Shown piece after piece: positions 1 through 15,646 of a stretch of 64,000 nucleotides of DNA (position 1 is the first letter of the stretch; the number at the start of each line of letters is the position of its first letter). Source of the DNA: Microlunatus sp. Gsoil 973 (lineage in GTDB: Bacteria > Actinomycetota > Actinomycetes > Propionibacteriales > Propionibacteriaceae); assembly GCF_009707365.1 (NCBI RefSeq), contig NZ_CP046122.1, positions 4,588,001-4,652,000 on the forward strand. The letters run 5' to 3'. The notes beneath the pieces are model-generated. The model searched no databases, was not told where the DNA came from, and saw only the letters and a list, made by a program, of their open reading frames with translations. The translations under genes were made by a program, and so were the position numbers.

Positions 1-591
1 GACGACTACGTCAGCGACTGGGCACGGACCGTTCAGCCCTCGGCCGGTGCGGACCGCGGCTGGACGGTGCTGCCGGAGGTCGGCGACGAGGTCCTGGTCA
101 GCTTCGAACAGGGCGATTTCGGACGGCCGTACATGATCGGCGGCCTGTTCAACGGTCTCGACACACCACCCTCCGGGCCGGTCGACCTGGTCGACTCCGG
201 AAGCGGAGCGGTCAACCGGCGCTCGATGGTGTCCCGGAAAGGGCACCGGCTGGATCTCCTGGACTCCGACCGCTCCGAAGGCATCCGGATGGCCACCTCG
301 GACGACAAATTGTTGATCTTCCTGGACAGCACCCAGACCACGATCACCGTGCACGCCGATGGCAAGGTGGCGATCGAAGGCAGCAAGGGCATCAGCATCG
401 ACGCGGCCACCTCCTCACTCGAACTCAAGGGCGGCGACATCTCGGTCAAGGCGACGAACGGCGTGAGCATCGACGGCGGCCCGTCGCTGAAGCTGACCGG
501 GGTCAGTTCGAAACTCGAGGGCAGTGCCACCACCGAGATCAAGGGTGGCTCGTTGTGCTCGGTGTCCGCCGCAATGGTGAAGATCAACTGA
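1..591 (+). CDS. Spike/baseplate assembly protein V (VgrG/gp5-like), 5' truncated
   Basis: The reading frame is open from base 1, so this is the C-terminal 196 residues of a longer protein. The first ~45 residues (TVLPEVGDEVLVSFEQGD, then GRPYMIGGLFNG) are the typical OB-fold of phage gpV/gp5 and VgrG spike proteins. They are followed by a stretch of short repeating beta strands (SIDAATSSLELKGGDISVKA and similar), as in the gp5 beta-helix needle. In contractile injection systems this protein is the trimeric spike below the tube, capped by a PAAR tip; the next gene encodes a PAAR protein. The sheath and tube genes should lie to the left of the window. Family assignment is firm; eCIS rather than T6SS or prophage is inferred from the neighbours. 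Confidence 0.88.
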   Translation, partial: DDYVSDWARTVQPSAGADRGWTVLPEVGDEVLVSFEQGDFGRPYMIGGLFNGLDTPPSGPVDLVDSGSGAVNRRSMVSRKGHRLDLLDSDRSEGIRMATSDDKLLIFLDSTQTTITVHADGKVAIEGSKGISIDAATSSLELKGGDISVKATNGVSIDGGPSLKLTGVSSKLEGSATTEIKGGSLCSVSAAMVKIN

Positions 592-637
592 GGCTCGCAG
601 CAGACAGTGATCACCGAACGCGAGGAAGGAGATGATC

Positions 638-919
638 ATGCCGATGGCAGCACGGGTCGGTGACCCGACCGGGCATCCCGGGGTGATCGGCCCACCGGGC
701 GTGCCGACGGTACTGATCGGCGGAATGCCCGCGGCAACGGTCGGCACTCCGCACATCTGTTCCTTCCCGCCACCGGCGGTGCACCCGCCGTCGACGATCG
801 TTCCGCCGGGATGCCCGACCGTCCTGATCGGTGGCCTGCCGGCCGCCCGGATGGGCGACATGGCAGGCTGCGGTGCCCCCATCGTGATGGGGTGCCCGAC
901 GGTGATGATCGGAGGTTGA
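638..919 (+). CDS. PAAR-domain spike tip protein
   Basis: The product is 93 residues long and rich in Gly, Pro and His. It is built from repeated PTVLIGG / ATVGTPH / GAPIVMGCPTVMIGG units, the pattern of PAAR proteins, which form a metal-bound cone on the spike trimer. Candidate metal ligands are the His and Cys residues at HPG, TPHICS, VHPP and GCP. Two in-frame ATGs exist, at 632 and 638. The strong GGAAGGAG at 624-631 abuts the first and lies six bases before the second, so 638 is chosen. The stop overlaps the next start (TGATG). Confidence 0.9.
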   Translation: MPMAARVGDPTGHPGVIGPPGVPTVLIGGMPAATVGTPHICSFPPPAVHPPSTIVPPGCPTVLIGGLPAARMGDMAGCGAPIVMGCPTVMIGG

Positions 920-1356
920 TGATGGACGTCGACTTCGTCGGCGCGGGATGGTCGTTCCCGCTTGGCACCGACGCGACCAACGGCGTCGGCCTGGTCAGAG
1001 GAGAACGAGAGATCGAACAGGCGATCCGGCTGATCCTCGGCACGGCCTGCGGGGAGCGTCCGATGCGTCCGGAGTTCGGCTGCCGGATCCATGATCACGT
1101 CTTCGGTCCGGCGACCAGCGCAACGGCCGGCCAGATCGCCTACGACGTGCGGATCGCCTTGGAACGGTGGGAGCCGCGGATCGAACTGCTGGACGTCTCG
1201 GTCAGCTTCGAGGCCCTGGAGTCGGGAACCGTGTACGTCGACGTCGGCTATCGGGTTCGCGGCTCCAATGATCCCCGAAACCTGGTCTTCCCGTTCTACG
1301 TCATCCCCGACGAGCGTGCCGCCGATGACAAGCTTGCGATCACGAAAGGCACCTGA
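919..1356 (+). CDS. GPW/gp25-family baseplate protein
   Basis: This 145-residue protein matches the GPW/gp25 family (T4 gp25, Afp9, TssE): an N-terminal FVGAGWSFPLGTD segment, the ERPMRPEFGCRIHDHVF core containing the conserved basic/acidic EF-like motif, and the C-terminal VDVGYRVRGSNDPRNLVFPF. In the family, gp25 joins the baseplate wedge and nucleates sheath assembly. The start at 919 overlaps the PAAR stop; an ATG at 922 is an equal alternative, with GGAGG just upstream at 911-915. The chain of overlapping genes shows one operon for the whole baseplate. Confidence 0.92.
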   Translation: MMDVDFVGAGWSFPLGTDATNGVGLVRGEREIEQAIRLILGTACGERPMRPEFGCRIHDHVFGPATSATAGQIAYDVRIALERWEPRIELLDVSVSFEALESGTVYVDVGYRVRGSNDPRNLVFPFYVIPDERAADDKLAITKGT

Positions 1357-1358
1357 TC

Positions 1359-3308
1359 ATGTTGCCCGCCCCGAACCTCGACGACCGCCGGTTCCAGGAT
1401 CTCGTCGACGACGCCAAGCGCCTGGTCCAGCAACGCTGCCCGTCGTGGACCGATCACAACGTCTCCGATCCCGGGGTGACGCTGATCGAGGCGTTCGCCC
1501 AGATGGTCGACCAGTTGATCTACCGGCTGAACCGGGTCCCGGATCTGCACTACATCAAGTTCCTGGAACTGATCGGCGTCGAGCTGCGGCCGCCGGCTGC
1601 CGCCCGGGGCACGGTCACCTTCTGGTTGGCCGCGCCGCAGCCGCAGCCGGTGCTTGTCCGGGCCGAGACCCAGGTCGCCACCGCCCGGACCGACGTCAGC
1701 GAGCCGGTGGTCTTCTGCACCAGCCGCGACCTGAACATCCTGCCCTGTTCCTTCGCGCAGGCGGCGGCACAGACCAACGGTGCGGCTCCGGTGAACACCA
1801 CGTCCGCGCTGGCCGGGCCGGCCGGGTTCCGCTGCTTCTCCGACACGCCGAGGCCGGGCGATGCGCTGCTGATCGGACTGGACAACGCCGTACCCAGCTG
1901 CGCGGTCACACTACGGATGGAATGCGTGGTGTCGGGACGCGGCGTCGATCCGAAACGGCCACCGCTGGTGTGGGAGGCGTGGACAGACGACGGATGGACC
2001 GAATGCGAGGTTGACTCCGACACCACCGGCGGACTGAACAAGGCCGGTGACGTCGTGCTGCATCTGCCGGAGAACCACGCTGCGTCGATCCTTGCCCGGG
2101 AACGGGCGGCTGGCTGCGCTGCCGGTTGATCGACGCACTTCCCGACCAGCCGACCTATGTGGCCTCGCCGGTGATCACCCGGATCGCTGCGTTCACCATC
2201 GGTGGCACGGCCCCGATGGTGCATGCCGAGGTCGTCCATCACGAGGTGCTGGGCGTCTCGGACGGCACCCCCGGGCAGCGGTTCGGCCTGCAGCGCCGGC
2301 CTGTGGTCCAGTCCGACCAGCCGGGCAGCGTCGCCGTGATCACCGACGGTGATGCCGGTGCCGGCGAACAGACCTGGCATCAGGTCCAGCACTTCGCCCA
2401 GTCGGGTGCCGATGATCAGCACTTCCGGGTCGACCCGTACGGCGGCGAGGCCCAGTTCGGGCCGGCGGTGCGGATGGCCGACGGCGATCTGCGGCATTAC
2501 GGCGCCGTGCCGCCGAGGGGGAGCCGTGCTCCGGATGGAGTCCTATCGCACCGGTGGCGGGCGGGTCGGGAACGTGGCCCGCGGTCACGTCGTCGTGCTC
2601 AAGACCAGCGTCCCCTATGTCGCCCGGGTGATCAACCGCGTACCGGCGGTAGGTGGCGCGGAGGGGGAGTCGTTGGACGACGCCCGGATCCGCGGCCCGC
2701 TGTTGTTACGTTCCCGGGGCCGCGCGGTCACCGCCGACGACTTCGAGCAGCTGGCCCGCGACGTCGCGCCGGACGCCGCCCGGGTGCACTGCATGCCCGA
2801 ACCCGATCAGCCGGGCGGGGTACGGGTGCTGGTGGTGCCGCAGCTGGTCGGGGACGAGGTCGGCCGGATCGAGCGGCCACATCTCGACCCGCCTCCGGCC
2901 ATGTTGCAACGCATCGCGGCCACTCTCGACGCCCGCAGGTTGGTCGGTACCCGGCTGATCGTCCAGCCACCCGACTACAGCTGGCTCACTGCCGTGGTCC
3001 GGGTGAACGCCCGGTCGCGTTTCGATCCTGCCCAGGTGCGGCTCGACGTGTTGCGAGCGCTGTACGGGTGGTTCGACCCGCTGACCGGCGGACCGGACGG
3101 CACCGGGTGGCCGTTCGGCCGCTCGGTCCAGGTCCATGAGGTGAATGCCGCACTTGCCCGCATTCCGGGAGTCGACATGTCCCGCGACGTCGAGGTGACG
3201 CTGTATCCGGCCGATGCGACGCGTCGCCGTGGTGGCCAGGTGCAGCGACTCGACCTGCCCGAGACGGGCCTGGTCTATTCCTTCGACCACCAGGTCAGGG
3301 TCGGGTGA
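1359..3308 (+). CDS. Baseplate J-like wedge protein (gpJ/Afp11 type), frameshifted twice as sequenced
   Basis: The complete product should be about 650 residues of the putative baseplate assembly protein family. The N-terminal third (SWTDHNVSDPGVTLIEAFA, then LELIGVELRPPAAARG) reads in one frame to a stop at 2129. The middle (GWLRCRLIDALPDQPTY to HYGAVPPRG) reads in a second frame, and the C-terminal half (VLRMESYRTGGGRVGNVARG to FDHQVRVG) returns to the first. The breaks coincide with a missing G near 2104-2109 and an extra G in the five-G run at 2517-2521. Correcting both gives a continuous, canonical protein. Baseplate J proteins bridge the baseplate wedges. Next to an intact gp25 and tail protein I, a sequence error or a recent double mutation is more likely than old decay. 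A two-base gap to the previous gene supports operon membership. Confidence 0.85.
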
Positions 3309-3314
3309 CCGACG

Positions 3315-3899
3315 ATGCGCGGCTCTGTTGACGGACTGTCCAACCCTGCTCCACTGGCCGATACCCTGCCGGCCATGCTGCGGGCGGACCCGTTCGCCGC
3401 AGGTCTGTGTCAGGGACTTGACGAAGTGCTGGCGCCCGTGATGCTCAGCCTCGACTCCTTCCCGGCCTATCTCGACCTGGACACAACGCCCGACGACATG
3501 CTCGCCTGGCTCGGCGGGTGGGTCGGGCTGATCAGCGAGGAGGACGAGCTACCGGCCGGCGGCGATCCGGAACGGCTCCGTTCGCTGCTGGCCTCGGCAC
3601 AGCAGTTGCACATCCGCCGGGGCACCCGCTTGGGCATCGAGCGGGCGGTCAGCGCCGAACTGGACCTGCGTTGCGAGGTGCTGGAGACGGGTGCCGCGAG
3701 TTGGGCCGCCGAACCGGACCAGCCGCTGCCCGAGGGTGAACTGTCCGCGGAGGACGTCCCGACCATCGAAGTCGTGGTCTATCCGAGCAACGGCAGGACG
3801 GTCGACCTGCCACGGCTGGAGGACGTCCTGGAAGCCGCGACGCCGGCGCACGTGCGTCGGCGGGTCCGCGTCATGCCGGCAGACCAAGATCAGCCCTGA
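3315..3899 (+). CDS. Phage tail protein I-like baseplate protein
   Basis: The 194-residue product has the features of the gpI/TIGR02242 tail-protein family: ADPFAAGLCQGLDEVLAPV, then the conserved YLDLDTTPDDMLAWLGGWVG and the helical RSLLASAQQLHIRRGTRLGIERAV. In P2-like particles and eCIS this protein completes the baseplate wedge next to J. The ATG at 3315 lies six bases after the baseplate J stop. The 3' end overlaps, tail to tail, by 29 bases with the regulator gene on the other strand. This is the last structural gene of the rightward operon. Confidence 0.88.
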   Translation: MRGSVDGLSNPAPLADTLPAMLRADPFAAGLCQGLDEVLAPVMLSLDSFPAYLDLDTTPDDMLAWLGGWVGLISEEDELPAGGDPERLRSLLASAQQLHIRRGTRLGIERAVSAELDLRCEVLETGAASWAAEPDQPLPEGELSAEDVPTIEVVVYPSNGRTVDLPRLEDVLEAATPAHVRRRVRVMPADQDQP

Positions 3900-6585
3900 C
3901 CCGGGCGTGCCCGCGGTGGCTGATCTGGGCCCCGCTGTGATCACCGGCACGCTGCTGCAGGCTGATCAACAGCCGCCATGCCGGATCGCTGTACGGATCG
4001 AGGTCGATCGATCGCCGGGCGACCCGGATCGCTGTCGCCAGATCGCCCGAGCCCGCCGCCTGGCGCGCGGCGTCCACCGCGACCGAGGCGGCAAGGATTC
4101 GCAGCCGGTCACGTTCCTCGACCACCCATTCGGCCGGACCGACCTCCGGCAGCAGATCCCCGCCGTACAACTCCAAAGCCTCCAGGCGGGACCGGAGTGC
4201 GCGATCGGGATCGGCGGCCTCGAACCGAGCTGCCTCGGTCACCAAGGCCTCGAAGCGGCCGAGTTGATCATGTGCGTCGGGCAGTCGGAGCGCATAGCTG
4301 TCCCCGCGCCGACATATGCCACCCTCGCGCAACCCGGCAGCGACCAGGCACTGGCGGACACTGGACACCGCCACCTGAAGGCTCCGGGTGCCCGACGTGG
4401 CACCGGCATCGGGCCACAGTCTGTCGATCAACTCCTCCCGATGCACCTCCCGGCCGCACCGACCGGCCAGCAACATCAACAGGGACTGTGCCCGGGGCCG
4501 CAGTTTGCGCCATTCGATCTCGACACCGTCCACCTGCAGGGAGAAGCCACCCAGACAGTTCAACGCGATCATCGGCCGTTCCTTGATCATCGGCGCTGCC
4601 GGCAGCAGGCCGGGCAACTCGACCAGCAGCGCGTCCAACCGGCGGTCGGCAACCCATCGTGCCACCATCGGTGCACCGAGCGCGGCGGCCTGGCGCACGG
4701 CCGCGTCGAGCATCTCTTCCGATCGGGCCTGCCGGCCGGCCCTGCGGTGGACCGCACCCACCACGCAGCCCAGCAGGCAGGCACCCCAGGGATCCTCGTT
4801 GCTCTCGCACTCGATGATCACCTGTTCGGCGGCGGTGATCCTGGCCTGATCGGGGTGATGCACCAGCAGCACAGCGGCCTGGAGCCCGCGAGCCATCCGG
4901 GACAGCCACGGCTGTCCGGCGGCGTCGGCGTCCAGCACGATCTCGTCGAGTTCGATCAACACTGTGTCCACCGGTTGCTGCCCGACCGCAGCGAGTTGAC
5001 CGAGCAGCCGGACAGCGAGTTGTTCGCTGCTGTCCGGAGCCGCGTGGGCTGCAGCAAGATCAAGTTCCGGCAGCGCGGTACGCCGATCTCCGGCCAACAG
5101 CGCGGCCACACTGCGGGCGATCGGTGTCGACACGGGTTCGCTGTGCCGGCCGGGATGCAACACGTTCCGTAGTTCCGCCGAGACCCGCCCGGCCCGGTCG
5201 GAATAGCCGCCCCAGGTTCGCTCCGCCCGGGACCCGCCGGATTCCGGCAGCCACAGCGTTGCGACCGCTCGTTCGGTGGCGCACCGGCGATGGAAGTCCG
5301 GGTCGTCCAGCAACGACTCCGCCTGGCGGTATGCCGCGACCGCCTTGCCGATCCGGCCGTTGCGCAACATGCGCCGGGCAGCCGCCAGGGCCAGCATCGG
5401 GTCGTCCGGGACCCTGGTGAGTCCGATCGCTCCGCGCAGCCCGTCGCCGGTGGTCGGCGCCGCAGCGCCCAGCTGGGGCGCCAACCGTCCCACCGCGGTC
5501 CAGTCCTCGGCACGGGCATACGCGCGAACGGCGGCCGAGATCCGGCCGGACCTCTCCAGCAACTCGGCGCTGCGGGCGTAGACGGCGCGTGCGGTCCGAG
5601 TGCCGAGTTCGTCGACCAGGACGACTTCGAGATAGGTCTGCAGCACCTGGTGATAGCGATAGCTCAGTCCGCCGTCGATGCTGGTGGTGAAGAACTGCTC
5701 CGTCTCCAGCTCATCCAGCACGGCCGCGCTGCCGTCGGTGTCCAGCAACGCGTCGCAGAGTTCTCCGGTCATCACACCGAGCGTGCAGGTCTGCAACAGG
5801 AACCGCCGGCGTTGCGGGGAGAGCCCGCCGAGTACGTTGCGTGCGAGGTAGGACCGGATCAGCCGGGAGCGTCCGCTCAACTCCTCGACGGCGCGCTCCC
5901 GGTCGGGTCGGGACAGTCGGCTGGTTGCCAGGTGGAACAGTTGCAGGCCGGCCGCCCACCCTCCGGTTCGACGGGTCAGTGCCGCAGCCGCTGACGGAGA
6001 CATCGGGTGGGCGTACACGGCCCGGAACAGCTCCTCGACCTCCCAGGACCGGAAGCGAAGATCATCGCTGTCCAGTTGCACCAGGTCGCCGGAGACCAAC
6101 AGCCGTGAGGTGTTGATCAATGGTGGACGCCGCCCGGCCATCAGCACCCGCACGGCCTGTGGTCGCAGTTGGAGGAAGCGCTCCAGGGCGGACTCGGCGG
6201 TCGTCCCGGAAAGCTCGTGCAGATCGTCGATGACCAGAACGACCTGCCGGTCGGCGATCGTCTGCAGGTTGGTGATCAGGAGGCTCAGCGATCCGCCGGC
6301 GCAGTCGATGATCTTGTCCTCGGCCAGTGCCGTGCCGAGTGCTGCGGAGAGATGACGGACCAGCGCGGATTCGTCGTCGTCCTCGGCGGCGGCGCGATAC
6401 CAGGCGCTGTGTTGCGCCGTGCCGGCAACATTGCTCAGCAGCGTGGTCTTGCCCGACCCGGCCGGGCCGAGGACCAGGCCGAGGTGGGGTCCCAGCGGAT
6501 CGGTCAGTCGCCCGACAAGTCGCTCGCGGACCAGACCGCGCTGCTCAGGGCGTCGGATCTTCTCGCCGAAGACGACGGTCTCCAT
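3871..6585 (-). CDS. MalT-like STAND ATPase with C-terminal BTAD (SARP-type) activator domain
   Basis: This 904-residue protein starts with a MalT-type NTPase: Walker A GPAGSGKT at residues ~40-47 and Walker B VVLVIDDLHE at ~115-124. A conserved GGWAAGLQL segment and a long helical TPR-like middle follow. Instead of a LuxR helix-turn-helix, the last ~230 residues hold an OmpR-like winged helix (LRPRAQSLLMLLAG, then EELIDRLWPD) and a BTAD helical domain (RFEALVTEA, ending SDPAWRLLISLQQRAGD). Large MalT/SARP proteins are signal-gated activators. It converges on the baseplate operon, so it probably controls the injection locus, though no operator was identified. The Met at 6585 gives a sensible N-terminus. 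Confidence 0.85.
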   Translation of the reverse strand: METVVFGEKIRRPEQRGLVRERLVGRLTDPLGPHLGLVLGPAGSGKTTLLSNVAGTAQHSAWYRAAAEDDDESALVRHLSAALGTALAEDKIIDCAGGSLSLLITNLQTIADRQVVLVIDDLHELSGTTAESALERFLQLRPQAVRVLMAGRRPPLINTSRLLVSGDLVQLDSDDLRFRSWEVEELFRAVYAHPMSPSAAAALTRRTGGWAAGLQLFHLATSRLSRPDRERAVEELSGRSRLIRSYLARNVLGGLSPQRRRFLLQTCTLGVMTGELCDALLDTDGSAAVLDELETEQFFTTSIDGGLSYRYHQVLQTYLEVVLVDELGTRTARAVYARSAELLERSGRISAAVRAYARAEDWTAVGRLAPQLGAAAPTTGDGLRGAIGLTRVPDDPMLALAAARRMLRNGRIGKAVAAYRQAESLLDDPDFHRRCATERAVATLWLPESGGSRAERTWGGYSDRAGRVSAELRNVLHPGRHSEPVSTPIARSVAALLAGDRRTALPELDLAAAHAAPDSSEQLAVRLLGQLAAVGQQPVDTVLIELDEIVLDADAAGQPWLSRMARGLQAAVLLVHHPDQARITAAEQVIIECESNEDPWGACLLGCVVGAVHRRAGRQARSEEMLDAAVRQAAALGAPMVARWVADRRLDALLVELPGLLPAAPMIKERPMIALNCLGGFSLQVDGVEIEWRKLRPRAQSLLMLLAGRCGREVHREELIDRLWPDAGATSGTRSLQVAVSSVRQCLVAAGLREGGICRRGDSYALRLPDAHDQLGRFEALVTEAARFEAADPDRALRSRLEALELYGGDLLPEVGPAEWVVEERDRLRILAASVAVDAARQAAGSGDLATAIRVARRSIDLDPYSDPAWRLLISLQQRAGDHSGAQISHRGHARVRADLGLPA

Positions 6586-6606
6586 ACCTGCTCCATGGTT
6601 GGGTGG

Positions 6607-8826
6607 TCACCATCCGTGGTCGAAGACGGAGCCGGGGTCCCCGTCGTTCACCGCGTCGGTGGTTCCGTCCTCGGTCGCGCCGGGCCCGAGCCCGTTGGCG
6701 ACCAGGGGATTGAGGTGATAGCGCGCCTCGAGACCGTCGAGCAGTCCGTCGGAGTCGCTGTCGGCGTTCAGCGGATTGCTGCCGATAGCGTGTTCCATCG
6801 CATCGGACAACCCGTCATGATCACTGTCGGCTGCGTGTGGATCGGTTCCCAGCAGCCGCTCGATGCGGTCGGAGATCCCGTCATGATCGGAATCCCGATG
6901 AGGCACCCGCACGTTCTCGGCCAGCCTCCCGGTGCCCACCACGCCACCGACCCCGGCGATCCTGCCGGGATCACCGCCGGTCGCCAGTTCCTGGGCATCC
7001 AAGAGGTGATCACCATCGGTGTCGGGGGACAGCGGGTCGGTGTGGGTGATCATCGCCTCCCGCCCATCAAAGATCCCGTCGTGGTCTGTATCGGCCAGTC
7101 GCGGATCCGATCCGACCAGCTTCTCGAAGGCATCGGTCAGCCCGTCGTGATCATGATCAGGATCATTGCCGTCGACGCCCGGGAGCACGTCAGCGGGTGG
7201 TTGGGCCAAGGGCGCCGGCGCGTCGATCGAGAAGGTGTCGGCGTCCGGCAGTTGATCGGGGTCGACCGGCGGCTCGGCCGTTCCGTCGGAGATGCCCGGG
7301 ATCAGACCGGCGTAGTTGAACCGGCCCTTCGCGGGGAACTCGCCCACTCCGTACGCGCTGCCCTTGGCTTCGATCGTCTTGCCGTTGCCGAGGCTGATCG
7401 CGACGTGCGCCTGTCCGGCGGGCAGCGGACCCTTGGGTTCCTCGGAGAAGTAGAACAACAGCGCACCGGGCGTCTTGAGCGCCTTGTCGACCGGAATCAG
7501 CATGTCCTTGGACTTCAGATCCATGTACTGGGCCTCGGCGATCCGGGGCAGTTTCACCCCGGCCTGATGGGCCGCCCACTGGGTGAGCGAGGAGCAGTCG
7601 AAGGCCTTCGGGTCGGGATTGCCCAACGACGGGGTCGCGCCGTACACGTAGGAGTCACCCGCCTGCGTCTTGGCCGCGTCGAGGAAGGTCCGCAGTGCGC
7701 CGTCGTCGGCTGCGACATCGGCTCCCGCCGCCGGGTCCGACGAGGCGGCCCAGGTCGGACCGGCGTCCGGCATCGGCACAGTTGGCGATCCGGCCGCCTG
7801 GTGCGCCAGAGCCGTCTGCAGGGTCCACCGCGGCACGGTCTGGGTGGCGGAACCCGTTGCTGTCAGGGGATCCAGCCGGCTGGCGATCTCGAACTCATCA
7901 GTCAGGCCGTCATGATCGGAATCGGCAAGGGTCGGATCGGTTCCGTGAGCGAGCTCCGTCGCATCGGACAGTCGATCATGATCGGTGTCGGCCGAACGCG
8001 GGTCGAGGTCGACCAGCGTCTCGATGCGATCCGGGATGCCGTCCTGGTCGGAGTCCCGGCCCGGGCGATTGACGTTGATCGCCAGTGGTCCGGCGCCGAC
8101 AACGCCGCCGACGCCGGGCAGCCGGCCGGCGTCGCCTCCGACGACGAGTTCCGCCGGGTCGGTGAGTTGATCATGGTCGGTGTCGGCCGCCAGTGGATCG
8201 GTGTGGGAGACGACCGCCTCGTAGCCGTCGGACAGTCCGTCCCGGTCGGTGTCGGCGACGGTCGGATCGGTGCCGACGAGTTTCTCGAACTCGTCGGTGA
8301 GCCCGTCATGATCACTGTCGACCGTCGGCTGACCGTCGGGATCTGTACCTGCTGTGGCGGACTCGTCGACGGCTGCCAGCGGTCGGCCGCTGTCGATCTG
8401 GTCGTAACCGCCGGCATGCAGTGGCGGTGGCAGTGGCGCGCCGTAACCCGCGACGCCGCGTCCGTCGCCCTGGACACCGATCAGTTGCTCGACCTCGGGC
8501 AGATAGTGCCGGTAGTCGTGTGCCGTGCCCTTGTTGGCGTCGTGGGTGGTTGTCCACGGACGCATGTCGGTGCCGTGGTGACTGATCTGATAGGCGGCGC
8601 GGGCGTTCACCACGGGATCGGTGAGGTCGCCGAAGGTGTTCTTGCGGACGCCGCTGGCCACGTTGATCTGCCAGAGACCGATCGAGTGCTCACCCTGGCT
8701 GGCCACTGCACCCGTGCGGCCGGACGATTCGGCCAACGCGATCGCGGTCCAGGTGACCGCCTGGTGTGGGTCGAAGCCGGCCTCGCGTGCAGCCTGAAAG
8801 ATCTGCTGTATTGACAACACAGGCAT
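6607..8826 (-). CDS. Transglycosylase (SLT)-TSP3-NlpC/P60-TSP3 peptidoglycan hydrolase
   Basis: The product has ~739 residues in four parts. Residues ~1-115 resemble a lysozyme-like SLT domain (TWTAIALAESSGR, then GEHSIGLWQINV). Residues ~165-320 hold six thrombospondin type 3 calcium loops of the form DxDxDGLxD. Residues ~375-500 are NlpC/P60, with catalytic Cys ~409 (FDCSSL) and His ~472 (GQAHVAISLG). Residues ~550-710 hold six more TSP3 loops. Glycan-strand cleavage plus peptide cleavage in one protein fits a cell-wall-piercing lysin or a secreted hydrolase of the injection system. The ATG at 8826 starts MPVLSIQQIFQAAREAGF, a typical N-terminus for these hydrolases; an upstream in-frame ATG at 8922 has no clear ribosome site. 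No signal peptide is evident, in line with export through the particle. Confidence 0.85.
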   Translation of the reverse strand: MPVLSIQQIFQAAREAGFDPHQAVTWTAIALAESSGRTGAVASQGEHSIGLWQINVASGVRKNTFGDLTDPVVNARAAYQISHHGTDMRPWTTTHDANKGTAHDYRHYLPEVEQLIGVQGDGRGVAGYGAPLPPPLHAGGYDQIDSGRPLAAVDESATAGTDPDGQPTVDSDHDGLTDEFEKLVGTDPTVADTDRDGLSDGYEAVVSHTDPLAADTDHDQLTDPAELVVGGDAGRLPGVGGVVGAGPLAINVNRPGRDSDQDGIPDRIETLVDLDPRSADTDHDRLSDATELAHGTDPTLADSDHDGLTDEFEIASRLDPLTATGSATQTVPRWTLQTALAHQAAGSPTVPMPDAGPTWAASSDPAAGADVAADDGALRTFLDAAKTQAGDSYVYGATPSLGNPDPKAFDCSSLTQWAAHQAGVKLPRIAEAQYMDLKSKDMLIPVDKALKTPGALLFYFSEEPKGPLPAGQAHVAISLGNGKTIEAKGSAYGVGEFPAKGRFNYAGLIPGISDGTAEPPVDPDQLPDADTFSIDAPAPLAQPPADVLPGVDGNDPDHDHDGLTDAFEKLVGSDPRLADTDHDGIFDGREAMITHTDPLSPDTDGDHLLDAQELATGGDPGRIAGVGGVVGTGRLAENVRVPHRDSDHDGISDRIERLLGTDPHAADSDHDGLSDAMEHAIGSNPLNADSDSDGLLDGLEARYHLNPLVANGLGPGATEDGTTDAVNDGDPGSVFDHGW

Positions 8827-9096
8827 TGCCGGCACCCCCGACCCGCACCCGAAGACATGGGTGAGTCTATTCCCGCGGGCCGCCGTCGGCACCGGCCATT
8901 TCGGTACCGGCACCGATTTCATTCCGCGGTCTGACGGGCGCGTCGTTCGCCGGGATGATCAACTCCGGCAGCCGTTGCCCGAAGGGGCGGTTTCCCCTCC
9001 GGCCGCGCACTGGGCGGACTGCCCGGCCCTACCATGAGAGTGCCCGGACCGGCGGAGTCGACCAGCTGCGGACGGGCCGATCAGTGAGGCGCCGGG

Positions 9097-11680
9097 ATGT
9101 CAGAACTTTCGCCGTCGAGTCGCCGGGACGCGCCGCAATCCGGCTCGTACCGACTCGGTGTCGACCTGGGCACCACTTATACCGCGGCGGCCGTCGACAA
9201 CGACGGTACGCCGTCGATGGTGGGTCTGGGCAATCGTGCGCTGCAGATCCCGTCGGTGTTGTTTCTGAACGAGGACGGCGAATTCCTGGTCGGTGAGGCG
9301 GCAGAACGACGCGGACTCGCCGAACCCGACCGGCTGGTGCGGGAGTTCAAGCGCCGGATCGGCGATCATGTCCCGATCTTGGTGGGAGGTTCGCCGTACT
9401 CGCCGCAGGCGCTGACCGCCCGTCTCCTGCGCTGGGTTGTGGAGATCACGACCGAACGGATCGGGGCGCCGCCGGCTTCGGTCGTGTTGACCCATCCAGC
9501 CAACTGGGGGCCCTACAAACTGGACTTGTTGCGGCAGGCCGGCCAGTTGGCCGACCTCGAGGAGATCCACACCTGTCCCGAACCGCAGGCCGCGGCGGCA
9601 CAGTACGCGAGCCGGAACCGGGTCGAGCCGGGACAGCGGTTGGCGGTCTACGACCTGGGCGGCGGAACGTTCGATGTCTGCGTCCTGGAACAGACCGCAG
9701 ACGGATTTCGCATGCTCGGCACGCCGGAGGGGATCGAGCAGTTGGGCGGGGTCGACTTCGACGAGGCGTTGTTCCAGCAGGTGACCGCCTCGTTCGGCGG
9801 GCAGCTGTACGACCTCGATCCTGACGATCCTGCGGTGACGGTCGGCCTGACGCGGCTGCGTCGGGACTGTGTCGAGGCCAAGGAAGCGCTGTCGGTCGAC
9901 GTCGATGCTGTGGTGCCGGTCGCGTTACCGGGACTGACGACATCGGTCCGGGTGACGCGGTCGGAATTCGAGGCCCTGATCCGGCCGGCGCTGCGGGACA
10001 CCGTGGCCGCAACCAGCCGGGCGGTGCGGTCGGCGAGGCTGCAGCCGTCCGATCTCTCCGCGATCGTACTGGTCGGCGGCAGCTCGCGGATTCCGCTGGT
10101 CGGCGAGTTGCTGCAGCGTGAGTTCGGCGTGCCGACCTCGCTGGACACCCATCCCAAACACGACGTTGCGATGGGTGCTCTCCAGGCCCGACTGGACGTC
10201 ATTCCGACTCCCCAGCCGACTCCCCAGCCCACACCCCAGCCGCAACCGCAACCGGTGCCGCAACCGGAGCCGGATCCCATGCCGGGACCGGAGCCGTCCC
10301 CGGAACCTGAGCCGCTGCCGACGCCCCAACCCGAGCCGCCGCCTCCCGAGCCGGAACCTGTTCCGCGGCCGGTCGGTGAACCGGAACCGATGCCTCGCCC
10401 GGAACCGCGACCGCTGCCGACGCCCCAGCCCGAGCCGCAGCCGCAACCGATCCCGGAGCCGGAACCGACGCCGCAACCCGAACCGATCCCTCCACGGCCG
10501 CCTGAAGTCGAGCCGGTCGACGCCGATGACCGCGCCCCGCGCCCCTCGATGCTTGACCGGCTGCCGCGGCCATCTCGTCGTGTGCTCATTGCAGGTGGCT
10601 CGGTGCTCGCTGCCGCAGCTGTGGTCACCGCAAGCATCATCGCGCTGAACAATCGCCCGAACGCTGGCGGCGGGTCCACCCTGCCCCCGCCCAGCACGTC
10701 GGCAGCCCAGACCTCTCCGTCGACTGCGTCGTCACCACCGTCATCGACCCGGCCCTCGGCATCATCAACCGGTCCGCCCGCCCGGGCGCTCCCCGCGTCC
10801 CGCGCGCTGGCCGGGACCGAGCTGATCGTTCCGATGGAGACCGCTGGCACCACGGAGCTGTACCTCGCGGACACCCGCAAGTCCTCACCGGTCAAGAGGT
10901 TGACACACGATGCCGGCGCATCGAGCAGCGTGATGCTCTCGCCGGACAGGAGGACCTTCTTCTACATCACCGGTCCCGACGACCAGAACCGCGACTACCG
11001 GATCGCCGCTGCCCGGAAGGGGGAAGCCGATTCCGACCGGTTCGCCGATCGCAACCCGGTGTGTGCCGGTGGCTACTTCCGCGGGGCGTGGAATCCCGTC
11101 GACCCCACCATGATCGCGGTCCCGTGCCGTGCCGCAAACGGCGCGTACGGGCTGTACCTGATGCGCACCGACGGCACGATCATCCGGCCGATCGCCATCG
11201 GAACCGGCAACCGGGCCGACGATCCGACCTTCTCACCGGACGGTCTGCAGCTGGTGTACTGGGCCGCGCCCGGCGACAGGGGTGGCGGTGGCGGCCTGTT
11301 CAGCGCGCCGATCACCGGGGATGGCGCTCCGCGACAACTGACTCCCGTCGGCAGCAACGACGCGGATCCGGCGTTCTCACCCGACGGCTCGACGATCGCC
11401 TTCCGACGCCGCACTGCCGGGAACTCCGACATCTACACGATGCCTGCCGACGGTTCCGGACGCCCGGTCCGGATCATCCACACCGCCGGCGACGACCAGG
11501 ATCCGACCTGGTCGCCGTCGGGGGAGACAGTTGGCCTACAAGAGCGACGCGCGGAGCAGCTATCCCGGGCCTCGCGTTCCACGGATCTGGATCGCCGATG
11601 CCGACGGCAGCGGCCGGCATCTGCTCTGGACGTCGGGTGCTCCGGGAGCCCAGACGGCATCGGCCTGGAGCCGCCGCTGA
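9097..11680 (+). CDS. Hsp70-family ATPase fused through a transmembrane helix to a TolB-like beta-propeller; 3' end frameshifted
   Basis: Residues ~20-370 form an Hsp70/actin-like nucleotide-binding domain: phosphate 1 GVDLGTTYTAAAV, phosphate 2 VYDLGGGTFDVCVLE and adenosine motif IVLVGGSSRIPLV. The substrate-binding domain is replaced by ~100 residues of Pro/Glu/Gln repeats (10201-10500). After that come an Arg-Arg motif, a transmembrane helix at ~495-517 (VLIAGGSVLAAAAVVTASII), a Ser/Thr/Pro spacer, and PD40/TolB repeats (PTFSPDGLQLVYW; PAFSPDGSTIAFRR). The topology is thus a cytoplasmic ATPase and an outside propeller. An extra G in the run at 11520-11524 derails the last repeat. Without it the frame continues QLAYKSDARSSYPGP and ends at the TGA 11678-11680; as written it runs to 11778. 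The gene diverges from the hydrolase and is assigned to the injection locus by position. Confidence 0.82.
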
Positions 11681-11746
11681 TCCCTGTCGATGCGAGTCAG
11701 CCCGTTCGGCCTCCGACTCGTCAACAACCCGTTCCGCCCGAGGCCC

Positions 11747-12484
11747 TCACCACTTCACCTGCCCACCGGCGTCGATGAACGTCCCGGACGCGTCGCCGGT
11801 ACGCAAGGTCGCCGCCCGGGCAATGATGTCGGCAGCCTCGTCAGGGGTGACGGGTGCCTGATCCCTGTTGCCGGGGGCGAGATCGGTCTGTACCCAGCCG
11901 GGGCACACTGACGTCACCTTGATCGAGGTGTCCGCCAGCGCCTTGGCCAACACGATCGTGATCGCGTTGAGAGCCGCCTTGGAGGACTGATAGGCCGGCA
12001 CGACCATCGGGTGCCACGGTGAGTTCGGATCGGTCTGATGGGCGAATGAGCCCATTGTGCTGGAGACGTTCACGACCCGCCCTGCCGGGCTCCTGCGCAG
12101 GAGCGGTAGGAATGCTTCCAGCACCGCGACCGGGCCGAGAACGTTTGTGGCGAAGGTCTGCTGGAACATCGCCAGGTCGAGCGCCTCCTTCGGGTCGGCG
12201 TTGGTAGCCTCCGGCAGGATTCCCGCGTTGTTGATCAGAACGTCGAGCTGCCCGAAGCGCTCGGCAACCTCGGTGGCGGCGTCCCTCACCGATGCGTGGT
12301 CGGTGACATCCATGATCAGGCCGCTCACCGAGAAGCCCTCGAGCGACAGCCGGTCCACCGCCTCGGCCACCGCGTCGCGCCGTCGAGCGGCAAGCATCAC
12401 ATGGTCGCAGTCCCGGCCGAGCCGTCGAGCAGTCGCCAGTCCGATGCCCCTGTTGGCACCCGTCACGAGTGCGATCTTCACCAT
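11747..12484 (-). CDS. SDR-family NAD(P)-dependent oxidoreductase
   Basis: This 245-residue classical short-chain dehydrogenase has cofactor motif TGANRGIG at residues 8-15, the structural INNAG motif, the catalytic Ser in NVSSTMGS and the YQSSK catalytic pair, followed by the conserved CPGWVQTDLAP. AARRRD after the second strand suggests NADP preference. The substrate cannot be told from the sequence. The start is the ATG at 12484, preceded by GAGAGGA; a TTG directly before it is also in frame. The gene stands alone, converging on the Hsp70 fusion gene. Confidence 0.92.
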   Translation of the reverse strand: MVKIALVTGANRGIGLATARRLGRDCDHVMLAARRRDAVAEAVDRLSLEGFSVSGLIMDVTDHASVRDAATEVAERFGQLDVLINNAGILPEATNADPKEALDLAMFQQTFATNVLGPVAVLEAFLPLLRRSPAGRVVNVSSTMGSFAHQTDPNSPWHPMVVPAYQSSKAALNAITIVLAKALADTSIKVTSVCPGWVQTDLAPGNRDQAPVTPDEAADIIARAATLRTGDASGTFIDAGGQVKW

Positions 12485-12661: not shown

Positions 12662-14053
12662 ATGACGAGTCAAGGGTCGGCCGACGGCATCGGCCCGTCG
12701 GTCGGGATGCTCACAGAGGCGGCCGAGGCGGAACTGCCCGGACTCGTCCAAGACCTGATGCGGTTGGCCGCCATCCCGTCGATCGCCGCCGAGGGCTTCG
12801 ATCCGGAAGCCTTGTTCACCGCGCACGACCAGGTGGTCGGCCTGCTCACCGCGAGCGGTGTCACCGATATCGGCCGGCTCGAGGTCCCCGGGACGACGGC
12901 CCCCATTGTGAGCGCCACCGTCCCCGGTCCGCCAGGGTCGCCCGCGGTGCTGCTCTACACCCACTACGACGTGGTCCCTGCAGGGGATCCCGCGCTGTGG
13001 CGAAGCCCGCCGTTCGAACCGGCGGTCGACGGTGATGCGATCGTCGGTCGCGGTGTCGCAGATTCCAAGGCCAACATCGTCAGCATCGCCGGTGCGCTGC
13101 GCCTGCTCCGCGACCGGCTGCCGGTCACCGTCAAGATCATCATCGAGGGTCATGAGGAGTTCGGCAGCCCCTTCGACGACTACCCGAAACAGGCACCGGA
13201 GCTGTTCGCAGCCGACGCCATCGTGATCGCCGATGTCGGGAACGTCCGGCCGGGCACGCCGACGATGACGGTCGCCCTGCGCGGGTCGGCCTCAGTCACG
13301 ATCAGCGCGACATCACTGCTTTCGGACAAGCACAGCGGCCAGTACGGCGGTGCCGCGCCCGACGCGCGACTCGCGCTGATCCGGGCGATCGGCTCCCTGC
13401 ACGACGATGCCGGAGACGTCGTCGTGCCCGGCTTGCGCCGGGAGCCCTGGGCCGGCACCAGTTACACCGATGACGAGTTCCGGCGGCTCGCAGAGGTCGT
13501 CGACGGCGTACCGCTGCAGGGCACCGGAACGATCGGCGAACGGATCTGGTCCGGGCCGGCGATCACCGTGATCGCCTTCGACGCGCCCCCGATCGACTCG
13601 CCGCTGAACGCCGTCGCCGGCAGCGCCACGGCCGTACTGAACCTCCGGGTCCACCCGGAGCAGGACGCGGCCGAGGCCCAGCAGGCGTTGATCAATCACC
13701 TGCGCAGCCTGCGCCCGTTCGGAATCGAACTCGAGGTCACCGCCGGCGAGACGGGCAACGGTTTCGCAGCCGCCCTCGACGGCGCCGGCTATCAGGCGGC
13801 ATCTCAGGCGCTCGCGGCGGTCTGGGGGCAGCCGACCGGTGCGATGGCCAGCGGGGGGTCGATACCGCTGGCCATGGCCTTCCAGGAGGCGGATCCGCAG
13901 ACCGAGATCCTGCTGTTCGGAGCGACGGACGGCTACGCCAACATCCACGGACCCAACGAACGTGTGTTGATCAGCGAGATCAGGAACAGCATCGTCGGCC
14001 TGGCACTGTTCTTGATCAACATGGGCGCCGGGCCGCGATCGGCGCAATCATGA
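12662..14053 (+). CDS. M20-family metallopeptidase (dipeptidase)
   Basis: The 463-residue product is a typical M20/M28 zinc peptidase. Metal ligands are visible at His101 (LLYTHYDVV), Asp134 (GRGVADSKAN), Glu165-166 (EGHEEFGSP) and the late His in ANIHGPNE, with a dimerisation domain between them. M20 dipeptidases remove C-terminal residues from dipeptides or hydrolyse N-acyl amino acids. Its stop overlaps the start of a YfcC-type permease (ATGA), and a ROK regulator follows, so uptake and hydrolysis of a peptide or amino-acid conjugate are probably coupled. The specific substrate is unknown. Confidence 0.9.
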   Translation: MTSQGSADGIGPSVGMLTEAAEAELPGLVQDLMRLAAIPSIAAEGFDPEALFTAHDQVVGLLTASGVTDIGRLEVPGTTAPIVSATVPGPPGSPAVLLYTHYDVVPAGDPALWRSPPFEPAVDGDAIVGRGVADSKANIVSIAGALRLLRDRLPVTVKIIIEGHEEFGSPFDDYPKQAPELFAADAIVIADVGNVRPGTPTMTVALRGSASVTISATSLLSDKHSGQYGGAAPDARLALIRAIGSLHDDAGDVVVPGLRREPWAGTSYTDDEFRRLAEVVDGVPLQGTGTIGERIWSGPAITVIAFDAPPIDSPLNAVAGSATAVLNLRVHPEQDAAEAQQALINHLRSLRPFGIELEVTAGETGNGFAAALDGAGYQAASQALAAVWGQPTGAMASGGSIPLAMAFQEADPQTEILLFGATDGYANIHGPNERVLISEIRNSIVGLALFLINMGAGPRSAQS

Positions 14054-15646
14054 CCACCACCGAGGAGACTCCGACCGGCTCGAAGAAGCAGACCGAGCCG
14101 AGGAAGTTCCAGTTCCCGAGCGCGGTCACCCTGCTGGCCATTGTTGCGGTCTTGGTCTGGATCGCCACCATCTTCATTCCGGCCGGCAGCTACAAGCTTG
14201 ATGAGAACGGGAGCCCGGTACCGGGTTCCTTCCACTACGTCGACTCCACCCTGTCGGTGGGTGAGCGGATCAAACAGATCCTTTTCGCTCCGATCAACGG
14301 CCTGTACGGCGTGCAGGATCCCAGCACCGGGTTCGTCGACCCCAACAATGTCGGCGCCCTGTTCGGCTCCATCGGCGTGATCTTCTTCATCATGTGCCTG
14401 GGCGCCTTCATCTCGGTTGCTTTCGCGACGCGTGCGCTCGAGGTCGCCATCACCCAGCTCACGGCACGGATCCAGAGCCGGGGCTCCCTGTTGATCATCG
14501 CGATCATGGCGCTGTTCTCCTTGCTGGGGACGACGATGGGATTCTCGGTAGAGACCTTCGGCTTCTACGCCTTGCTGATCCCGTTGATGGCCGCGCTGGG
14601 ATACGACCGGATGACCACAGCGGCGATGATCATCCTCGGGAGCTCGATCGGCACCATGGCGTCGACCGTCAATCCGTTCTCGATCGGGGTCGCCTCCGGT
14701 GAGGCGGGCGTCTCGATCGGCGACGGGATCGTCCTGCGGGTGCTCGTGTGGATCGTGCTGACCGTCCTCGGCATCCTGTTCGTGCTGCGATACGCCGCGA
14801 GGGGTGAGGGCAAGGCCGGAGCTGTCGGTGCTCGCCGGTGAGCCCGATCCGGACGAGGTTCCCGCAACAGAGGCCGCGGCCGGGGATCATGCAGCGACCG
14901 GAACGTCGGCGACGGTCGAAACGTTGTCCGGAACCCAGAAGATCGTTCTGGCCATCACCGGTCTGACCTTCGCCCTGTTGATCTTCTCGGTCATCCCCTG
15001 GTCGGCGATCTTCGGCGGCAGCACGGCGCCGGCGGAGTACGACGAGTTGCACGAGGTGGCCACCCAGCCGTACTGGTTCGAACTGAACTGGTGGTTCCCC
15101 GAGCTGAGCCTGCTTTTCCTGATCGCAGCGATGGTCATCGGACTGGTCGCGCGGATGGGGGAGAAGCGCATCGTCTCGCTGATCAGCCAAGGTGCGGCGG
15201 ACATGATCGGACCGTCGATCGTGATTCTCCTCGCCCGAGGCGTCGCGGTGCTGATGACCAATACGCAGACCTTGGACACTGTGCTCAACGCGATGGAGAA
15301 TCTGGTCAGCGGCACGTCGACCGGAGTCTTCCTGATCCTGGTCACGCTGGTCAACATGCCATTGGCGTTCCTGATCCCGTCGTCCTCGGGTCACGCGACA
15401 CTGGCCATGCCGTTGCTGGCTCCGCTGGCCGATCTGGCCCAGGTGTCGCGGCCGCTGGTGATCACCGCATTCCAACTCGGCCACGGCCTGATGCTGGCAT
15501 TCGCTCCGACGAACGTGATCATCGTCGGTGGTCTGGCGATCGCCAAGGTGGGCTACAGCAAGTATCTGCGTTTCGTGTGGCCACTGTTGGTGGCGTTCTT
15601 CGTCGTCATCGCGGTCGCTCTGCTGGTCGGATCTGTGGCGAGTTAG
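14050..15646 (+). CDS. YfcC-family (C4-dicarboxylate/basic amino acid antiporter-like) permease, frameshifted as sequenced
   Basis: The joined product is about 531 residues with roughly twelve hydrophobic segments. The first part (FQFPSAVTLLAIVAVLVWIATIFIPAGSY; GVASGEAGVSIGDGIVLRV) and second part (IPSSSGHATLAMPLLAPLADL; HGLMLAFAPTNVIIVGGLAIA) are both typical of YfcC/arcD-like permeases. The frames split at the GGGG of 14801-14804. With one G removed, the text reads YAARVRARPELSVLAGEPDPDE, the usual cytoplasmic linker of this family. As written, the first part stops at 14841. Translation is coupled to the peptidase by ATGA. The gene probably imports or exchanges the peptide or amino acid handled by that enzyme. 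Confidence 0.82.

Follow-up and report, generated by a model that had tools for sequence, protein, structure and literature searches.

A Streptomyces-type contractile injection system locus with CisA, IniA-type dynamin, hydrolase and Hsp70-like genes in Microlunatus

Gene content of the locus

The stretch of DNA analyzed here, called the window throughout, comprises 64,000 nucleotides of Microlunatus sp. Gsoil 973 (C1:4588001-4652000 of a single-contig genome of 4.91 Mb), and its left edge cuts through the locus of a contractile injection system (CIS) that continues leftward for ~12 kb to an AAA gene, the leftmost accessory gene lying ~22 kb outside the window. An earlier note, made from the letters of the window, had placed a spike, PAAR, gp25, baseplate J and tail protein I in a row, and Pfam confirms all of them on the + strand; the baseplate J gene is present, but it is not one open frame, falling into three pieces in two frames. 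The ~12 kb left of the window hold an AAA ATPase, eCIS core, sheath, tubes, LysM/CIS tube and spike, which bears out the attribution to an extracellular contractile injection system (eCIS) of actinobacterial type. Sheath, tube, AAA ATPase and LysM genes had been expected leftward and were found there, but no tape-measure gene was recognized at the locus; passages of the report on the Streptomyces coelicolor CIS cluster likewise describe it as lacking one (PMC12237407). By Pfam, sheath, tube, CIS_tube/LysM, spike, PAAR, gp25, J, Tail_P2_I, AAA ATPase and eCIS_core share one locus, as in a type IId-like eCIS, and the whole genome yields a single sheath (PF04984) match and a single eCIS core match.

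No Pfam match to capsid, portal, terminase or replication genes, or to the TssJLM membrane complex, was obtained among 17 of the 18 open reading frames (ORFs) left of the sheath (36 kb flank) and 17 of the 20 ORFs of window 1-32000. The earlier note had likewise seen neither phage replication genes nor membrane-complex genes of a type VI secretion system, and both a prophage and a type VI system were rejected on these zero matches among the ORFs scanned. A defense-system reading was also set aside, PADLOC yielding just LeoA/LeoBC (dynamins) and IetA/TRIP13 (AAA) matches.

Outward from the CIS on its left side, the order is a protein with fn3, transmembrane (TM) and SPOR parts (fn3-TM-SPOR), an ortholog of the adaptor CisA, an IniA-type dynamin that bears a zinc ribbon at its N-terminus, another dynamin, a LuxR regulator and a ribbon protein with immunoglobulin (Ig)-like repeats (Table 1). 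Among nine fn3-TM-SPOR orthologs, fn3 was found in eight and SPOR in four. The CisA ortholog has two zinc ribbons, hydrophobic residues 172-190 and an F5/8-type C-like outer domain, and is separated from the ribbon dynamin by 28 bases (52-115 in six relatives, by starts as called). When ten CisA sequences of the clade defined below were compared, without their ribbons, with the protein encoded after Tail_P2_I in 21 other loci, mostly Streptomyces, the C-terminal part proved homologous (hhalign 98.4%, E 4.5e-15); it matches F5/8 type C (4/15) or the related NADase translocation domain (3/15). The Streptomyces gene was equated with CisA from its described position and topology, not from the SCO4242 sequence itself, and on these grounds the adaptor of a type IId-like eCIS is present. 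In Streptomyces, CisA is needed for firing, its cytosolic part has a predicted contact with Cis11 and its C-terminal domain has been likened to periplasmic substrate-binding domains, according to passages of PMC12237407, whose main text does not contain the word 'zinc'. As for the ribbon dynamin, a profile of 28 homologs aligns at positions 73-668 to IniA residues 4-598 (6J72, E 9e-141); GTPase, neck and trunk run along the whole IniA length, as in the IniA family, and the ribbon sits in the 72 positions ahead. Membrane fission by M. smegmatis IniA is described in PMC6715688.

To the right, a MalT-BTAD regulator, a dual peptidoglycan hydrolase and an Hsp70-TM-TolB fusion adjoin the baseplate genes, and Pfam and hydropathy agree with this initial reading of the trio. 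The regulator gene converges on Tail_P2_I, the gene ends overlapping, and its product has 40-47% identity in all 10 other complete-set genomes (see below). Directly upstream of it, on the same strand, the hydrolase gene probably starts near 8826 rather than 8922, judging from relatives (L034, L036 and L038 leave little room upstream of a similar start). From this probable N-terminus the protein enters the SLT domain directly, without a signal-peptide-like N-terminus and with no hydrophobic segment by a hydropathy script; nor does Pfam place an eCIS_core domain on it. In the hydrolase alignment, whose rows were chosen by start pattern and do not include L037 and L038, the motif Glu is present in 9/9 rows and the Cys and His in 8/9. 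The Glu is catalytic in SLT domains, as is the Cys-His pair in NlpC/P60 domains. The third protein has one hydrophobic segment (residues 497-515, hydropathy script), preceded by an HSP70 match in two stretches, the best at residues 97-362, and a Pro-rich linker, and followed by a propeller. The substrate-binding half is apparently lacking, and the protein would be an Hsp70-like ATPase rather than a classical chaperone. In genome G019, the nearest homolog of this protein (69%; L133:9038-11434) sits 2.1 Mb from the CIS, and a remoter copy (51%) lies near the AAA gene. We also considered that CisA was missing, there being none behind Tail_P2_I, and had been replaced by the trio; this was dropped once the ribbon search revealed the CisA ortholog on the left.

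Table 1. Features of the CIS locus and its flanks. Plain numbers are window positions; L002 covers the 18 kb that end at the window's left edge, adding 18000 to a window position giving the L002 position; L004 covers the 18 kb preceding L002, and L006 overlaps L002 and L004.
Feature	Position	Strand	Evidence or remark
Ribbon protein with Ig-like repeats and C-terminal hydrophobic segments	L004:13925-15949		
LuxR regulator	L004:16066-16692		
Second dynamin	L006:3703-5199		PDB matches BDLP and IniA
Ribbon dynamin (IniA-type)	L002:195-2111		Head-to-head with CisA
CisA ortholog	L002:2140-3231		Head-to-head with ribbon dynamin
fn3-TM-SPOR protein			516 amino acids; first gene outward from CIS on left
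AAA ATPase	L002:5648-7750		Pfam
eCIS core	L002:7778-8491		Pfam
Sheath	L002:8904-10532		Pfam
Tube	L002:10583-11026		Pfam
151-amino-acid protein	L002:11023-11478		
IS110-family transposase	L002:11660-12871	Opposite to CIS genes	Between tube/151-amino-acid genes and Pro-rich gene
Pro-rich protein, 818 amino acids	L002:13081-15537		No Pfam match
Second, gp19-like tube protein	L002:15580-16014		Pfam
CIS_tube	L002:16016-16807		Pfam
VgrG-like spike/hub	L002:16804 to window 591 (3' part, window 1..591)	+	Pfam Phage_GPD and Phage_base_V; 59-63% identity to four clade relatives
PAAR spike tip	632-919	+	PAAR_motif 1.7e-19
gp25-like baseplate ORF	811-1356	+	GPW_gp25 2.2e-24; start likely near 919, overlapping PAAR stop
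Baseplate J (Cis11-like)	1359-3308, in three frame pieces: 1359-2129, roughly 2126-2440, roughly 2430-3308	+	Baseplate_J 3.2e-11, last piece
Tail_P2_I (Cis12-like) baseplate protein	3315-3899	+	Tail_P2_I 1.1e-08
AAA/STAND-type NTPase, winged helix and BTAD regulator	3871-6585	-	Pfam AAA_16/AAA_22, Trans_reg_C, BTAD
Peptidoglycan hydrolase: SLT_3, TSP3 repeats, NlpC/P60, TSP3 repeats	6607-8826 (ORF to 8922)	-	Pfam
Hsp70 ATPase domain, Pro-rich linker, TM, TolB/PD40 propeller	9097-11778	+	HSP70 2.6e-49, PD40 7e-16

Another large LuxR-type regulator (903 amino acids; window 17193-19904) adjoins a ROK gene; relatives gave only short matches of helix-turn-helix length, and no link to the CIS was seen.

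One conserved gene set

The CIS particle genes, CisA, the ribbon dynamin, the second dynamin, the fn3-TM-SPOR protein, the LuxR and STAND/BTAD regulators, the hydrolase and the Hsp70-TM-propeller protein form one conserved set. A J search in named genomes matched at least 589 stretches, 334 of which passed confirmation, and the 80 best were retained; the 13 related loci are L030-L038 (J identity 61-76%) together with G000, G019, G024 and G036. Ten genes (regulator, hydrolase, Hsp70, two dynamins, fn3-TM-SPOR, LuxR, CisA, AAA and J, the last represented by two pieces) are all present in 11 of the 13 related genomes, and genomes with the complete set belong to Microlunatus, Kribbella, Nocardioides, Blastococcus and one Actinomycetales metagenome-assembled genome (MAG). 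Pairwise distances of the ten-gene set in the 11 complete genomes follow J distances (r 0.88-0.98). The order Tail_P2_I-BTAD-hydrolase-Hsp70 is kept as in the window in 7/13 (window, G036, G024, L031, L032, L035, L037); the gene order is rearranged and the set retained in Blastococcus, in Nocardioides guangzhouensis and in one other genome of this genus. G043 and G045 are draft genomes in which J and the dynamin side lie on different contigs. Among the remaining 71 of the best 80 loci (L039-L109; J identity <=56%; <=10 kb per side), BTAD occurs in some, and hydrolase and Hsp70 in none (0/71). The eCIS_core domain was found in 10/40 genomes, our own included.

The earlier note had proposed the right-hand trio as a unit not previously described. 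The trio does recur beside baseplate genes in other genera, with all three genes in 11/13 related genomes, and so withstands the note's own refuting condition of no recurrence in relatives, but it is not a natural unit: the same genomes keep a larger set of which it is the right end, and Blastococcus shuffles it. The accessory set is at least eight genes that flank the CIS on both sides (two regulators, two dynamins, CisA, fn3-TM-SPOR, hydrolase and Hsp70). Regulators beside eCIS are, moreover, known from two papers (PMC8213781, PMC8505568), one of which lists BTAD and GerE, found here as well, among eCIS 'shell' domains (Geller et al. 2021; PMC8213781). The dynamin, Hsp70 and ribbon partners were not met in the portions of Geller et al. 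covered, and the terms 'HSP70' and 'NlpC' are absent from its main text.

A sample of 156 genomes of the order, our own included, served for all counts of J, hydrolase, Hsp70, dynamin, fn3-TM and ribbon. J was matched in 20 genomes at E<=1e-30, in 14 at E<1e-70 and in 7 at E<1e-140, the last constituting the clade. The first domain of the hydrolase occurs in 7/7 clade genomes and 0/149 others, Hsp70 (E<=1e-60) in 7/7 and 1/149 (G160), and fn3-TM in 16/20 J-positive (E<=1e-30) and 0/136 J-negative genomes; the Fisher values for co-occurrence, 2e-11 to 3e-20, overstate independence, the genomes being related. In the other 6 clade genomes the second dynamin is 62-67% identical. A dynamin module exclusive to the CIS was considered and rejected: homologs with no more than 45% identity occur in 8 non-clade genomes, and in four of these the identity is 41-45% across most of the length. 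The Hsp70 gene of G160 adjoins a dynamin pair and a LuxR/ATPase regulator in a genome without a J match. Dynamin pairs were seen in J-negative genomes at L123, L124, L125 and L126, with Hsp70 and a LuxR/ATPase regulator added at L123 and L124; the latter two loci encode a protein whose N-terminus resembles IniB, an arrangement that looks like an iniBAC-like module with Hsp70.

The N-terminal zinc ribbon

The ribbon pattern C..C...N.....FC..C...L.W stands at the N-terminus of CisA, the dynamin and the Ig-ribbon protein. In the 1.32 Mb of the best 80 named loci it occurs 51 times, 49 of them immediately after Tail_P2_I. Where enough sequence past Tail_P2_I was available (72 loci), the ribbon is directly next in 42, a near form is present in 10, and none is found in 20, namely 9 clade loci, in which CisA has moved, and 11 others. 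A profile built on 21 ribbons gave some match at E<=0.01 in 135 of the 156 genomes; 26 matches score 42.5-55 bits, followed by a gap to 35.8 bits and below. These 26 fall in 14 genomes, exactly those in which J is matched at E<1e-70; 24 of the matches lie within 28.8 kb of J. Rows of the ribbon alignment (A2) were picked by the pattern, and its invariant residues are therefore partly a matter of construction; the second CisA ribbon, which was not used for row picking, is invariant in 15/15 rows. The A2 rows come in part from genomes later searched (G000, G019, G036/G024, G080, G142), and in G090 and G130 the CisA ribbon has the same sequence as an A2 row. G038, G070, G075, G083, G095 and G112 supply no A2 row, yet their CIS-locus ribbons score 43-51 bits. 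The ribbon is present on every one of the 11 clade dynamins, that of Blastococcus having a near form, and none was found, in strict or relaxed form, on the dynamins of the four loci examined from J-negative genomes.

The short ribbon after Tail_P2_I is a simple handle for finding candidate docking partners in any genome. Chloroflexi MAGs provide one setting for this, a ribbon protein standing immediately after Tail_P2_I in their CIS loci L042, L048, L059, L067 and L072; that of L072 has the same ribbon and, by eye, a similar-looking C-terminus. Roseiflexus is described, in a part of PMC12998442 (2026), as without close cisA homologs. Another ribbon protein, encoded at L132:6278 (+) in G142 (Kribbella) on a contig other than that of the CIS, is an orphan whose C-terminal end is hydrophobic and which has two ribbons of CisA type; it is possibly a CIS partner in trans.

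Known systems and possible function

CIS, CisA, IniA and BTAD regulators are already known kinds. The mycobacterial iniBAC module comprises the IniA/IniC dynamins and the signal-transduction ATPase IniR, and the present locus resembles it in its full-length IniA-type dynamin, paired second dynamin and nearby NTPase regulator. It differs in that the dynamin bears an N-terminal CisA-type zinc ribbon and is linked to a CIS; no IniB-like gene was noticed beside the dynamins, no dedicated search for one having been made. The likeness to the Streptomyces CIS/SLP (type IId) is broader, taking in sheath, tubes, LysM/tube initiator, VgrG-like spike, PAAR, gp25, J, Tail_P2_I and AAA, a CisA with two zinc ribbons, one hydrophobic segment and an F5/8-type C-like outer domain, and a LuxR-type regulator nearby. 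Unlike in Streptomyces, however, CisA lies on the other side, paired head-to-head with a dynamin, rather than after Tail_P2_I, and the dynamin pair, Hsp70-TM-propeller, SPOR protein and dual hydrolase are additions. Streptomyces CIS particles are cytoplasmic and free-floating and fire at the cell's own membrane, as the particles encoded here may do. For the step in which such particles reach the membrane and fire, CisA has so far been the adaptor described. The presence of its ribbon on a dynamin as well ties phage-tail machines to bacterial membrane scission. No paper on such a link was found among the open-access papers searched, where nothing joined a contractile injection system with a zinc ribbon or IniA, and where co-mentions of CIS with dynamin or Hsp70 concern other subjects by title; a Myxococcus study of heat stress and DnaK, for example, cites the Streptomyces CIS just for comparison in the part covered (PMC10313047).

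We tentatively favor, at somewhat below an even chance, a Streptomyces-type (IId-like) CIS joined to an IniA-type membrane-remodeling module and firing at its own membrane, by way of docking, scission and wall cutting. Envelope stress would lead the LuxR and STAND/BTAD regulators to switch the set on, with the Hsp70-TM-propeller protein perhaps acting as an outward-looking sensor or ATPase. The particles would remain cytoplasmic, and CisA and the ribbon dynamin would dock them, baseplate first, against the membrane's inner face, the zinc ribbon serving as a putative tag that binds the baseplate. Docking would trigger firing; the dynamin pair may bend and cut the membrane at the docking site, and the hydrolase, gaining access to the wall either by way of this breach or carried within the tube, could open peptidoglycan marked by the SPOR protein. 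Controlled death, particle release or both might be the outcome. A farther-reaching version, which we regard as quite unlikely, takes the N-terminal ribbon ending in LxW as a general CIS-docking tag in Actinomycetota and Chloroflexota, by which every protein bearing it would be brought to the baseplate of its own cell's CIS and which here would recruit the IniA-type dynamin for scission at the docked particle, the CIS exiting enclosed in or through pinched membrane and the wall being opened by the hydrolase, as distinct from whole-cell lysis.

Several observations count against joint action of CIS and dynamin module. Docking of ribbon to baseplate is proposed from co-occurrence, and the 7 clade genomes come from only two genera, their counts not being independent. 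Two of the 13 related loci fall short of the full set. A Micropruina MAG (L033) has BTAD, LuxR, CisA and a weak Hsp70, with no hydrolase and no dynamin pair in the genome, and a Microlunatus MAG (L030), in which J lies near a contig end, shows an incomplete set (Hsp70, LuxR, fn3-TM, CisA and AAA). IniA-type dynamins and Hsp70 also co-occur without this CIS. Two high-scoring ribbon proteins, the G142 orphan and a homolog of the Ig-ribbon protein in G019, lie far from the CIS, both in CIS-bearing genomes. Just 4 of the 8 weaker non-clade dynamin matches were examined for ribbons, and one of the 8 is in a J-positive genome; among the 120 dynamin homologs listed out of 1120, the strict ribbon is seen in 67 and a near form in 4, while 49 lack it as annotated, and some of the ribbon-less homologs start inside the linker as annotated. 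Finally, J is frame-broken in this genome, and the machine may be dead here.

It is also conceivable, if rather unlikely, that the set is protective, with the dynamin pair, Hsp70-TM and SPOR proteins repairing or sealing the producer's membrane and wall against stray firing and the hydrolase only remodeling the wall for particle exit. IniA fission has been proposed to maintain plasma membrane integrity (PMC6715688, in part), and the modules of dynamin, Hsp70 and LuxR/ATPase regulator that occur without this CIS imply a basic job other than injection. The ribbon, however, is added on CIS-linked dynamins only (11/11 against 0/4 from J-negative genomes) among those examined, which suggests that these dynamins act directly with the particle and do not serve general repair. 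Alternatively, the hydrolase could be CIS cargo aimed at rival bacteria, the rest being envelope housekeeping around a true extracellular antibacterial eCIS. Its two wall-cutting domains without a signal peptide and its strict link to the CIS (7/7 against 0/149) would suit a cargo, as would the location, the 3' end of eCIS operons being the usual toxin place (PMC8213781, in part). Yet it has no eCIS_core domain, no tail fiber or immunity gene was recognized among the ORFs scanned (no dedicated search having been made), and CisA points to cytoplasmic, membrane-docked particles as in Streptomyces; we consider the cargo explanation improbable. Coincidence, in the form of an envelope-stress island and a CIS co-inherited by descent in one lineage without cooperating, seems slightly less probable still. 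The order sample gives only two genera, and the distance matrices follow species descent too; on the other hand, the set is kept despite rearranged order, the ribbon is common to the CIS/CisA side and the dynamin side, and eCIS_core is present in only 2/19 other genomes of the genus, from which it follows that the set is gained or lost whole.

Compatible with each of these explanations is decay of the locus in this strain, which we consider possible and on the unlikely side. J is a single open frame of 644-647 codons in all four relatives examined and is broken here, the final ~45 residues of the Hsp70 protein are out of frame relative to relatives (a normal end is seen in the Kribbella versions), and an IS110-type transposase sits amid the CIS genes. 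Against decay, a DcuC-type C4-dicarboxylate carrier gene outside the locus (window 14050-15646) is split into two overlapping frames in the same way as J and the Hsp70 3' end, which makes sequence errors as likely as decay, and indel errors in the assembly are a possible source of all three breaks. The remaining CIS genes that were read are open.

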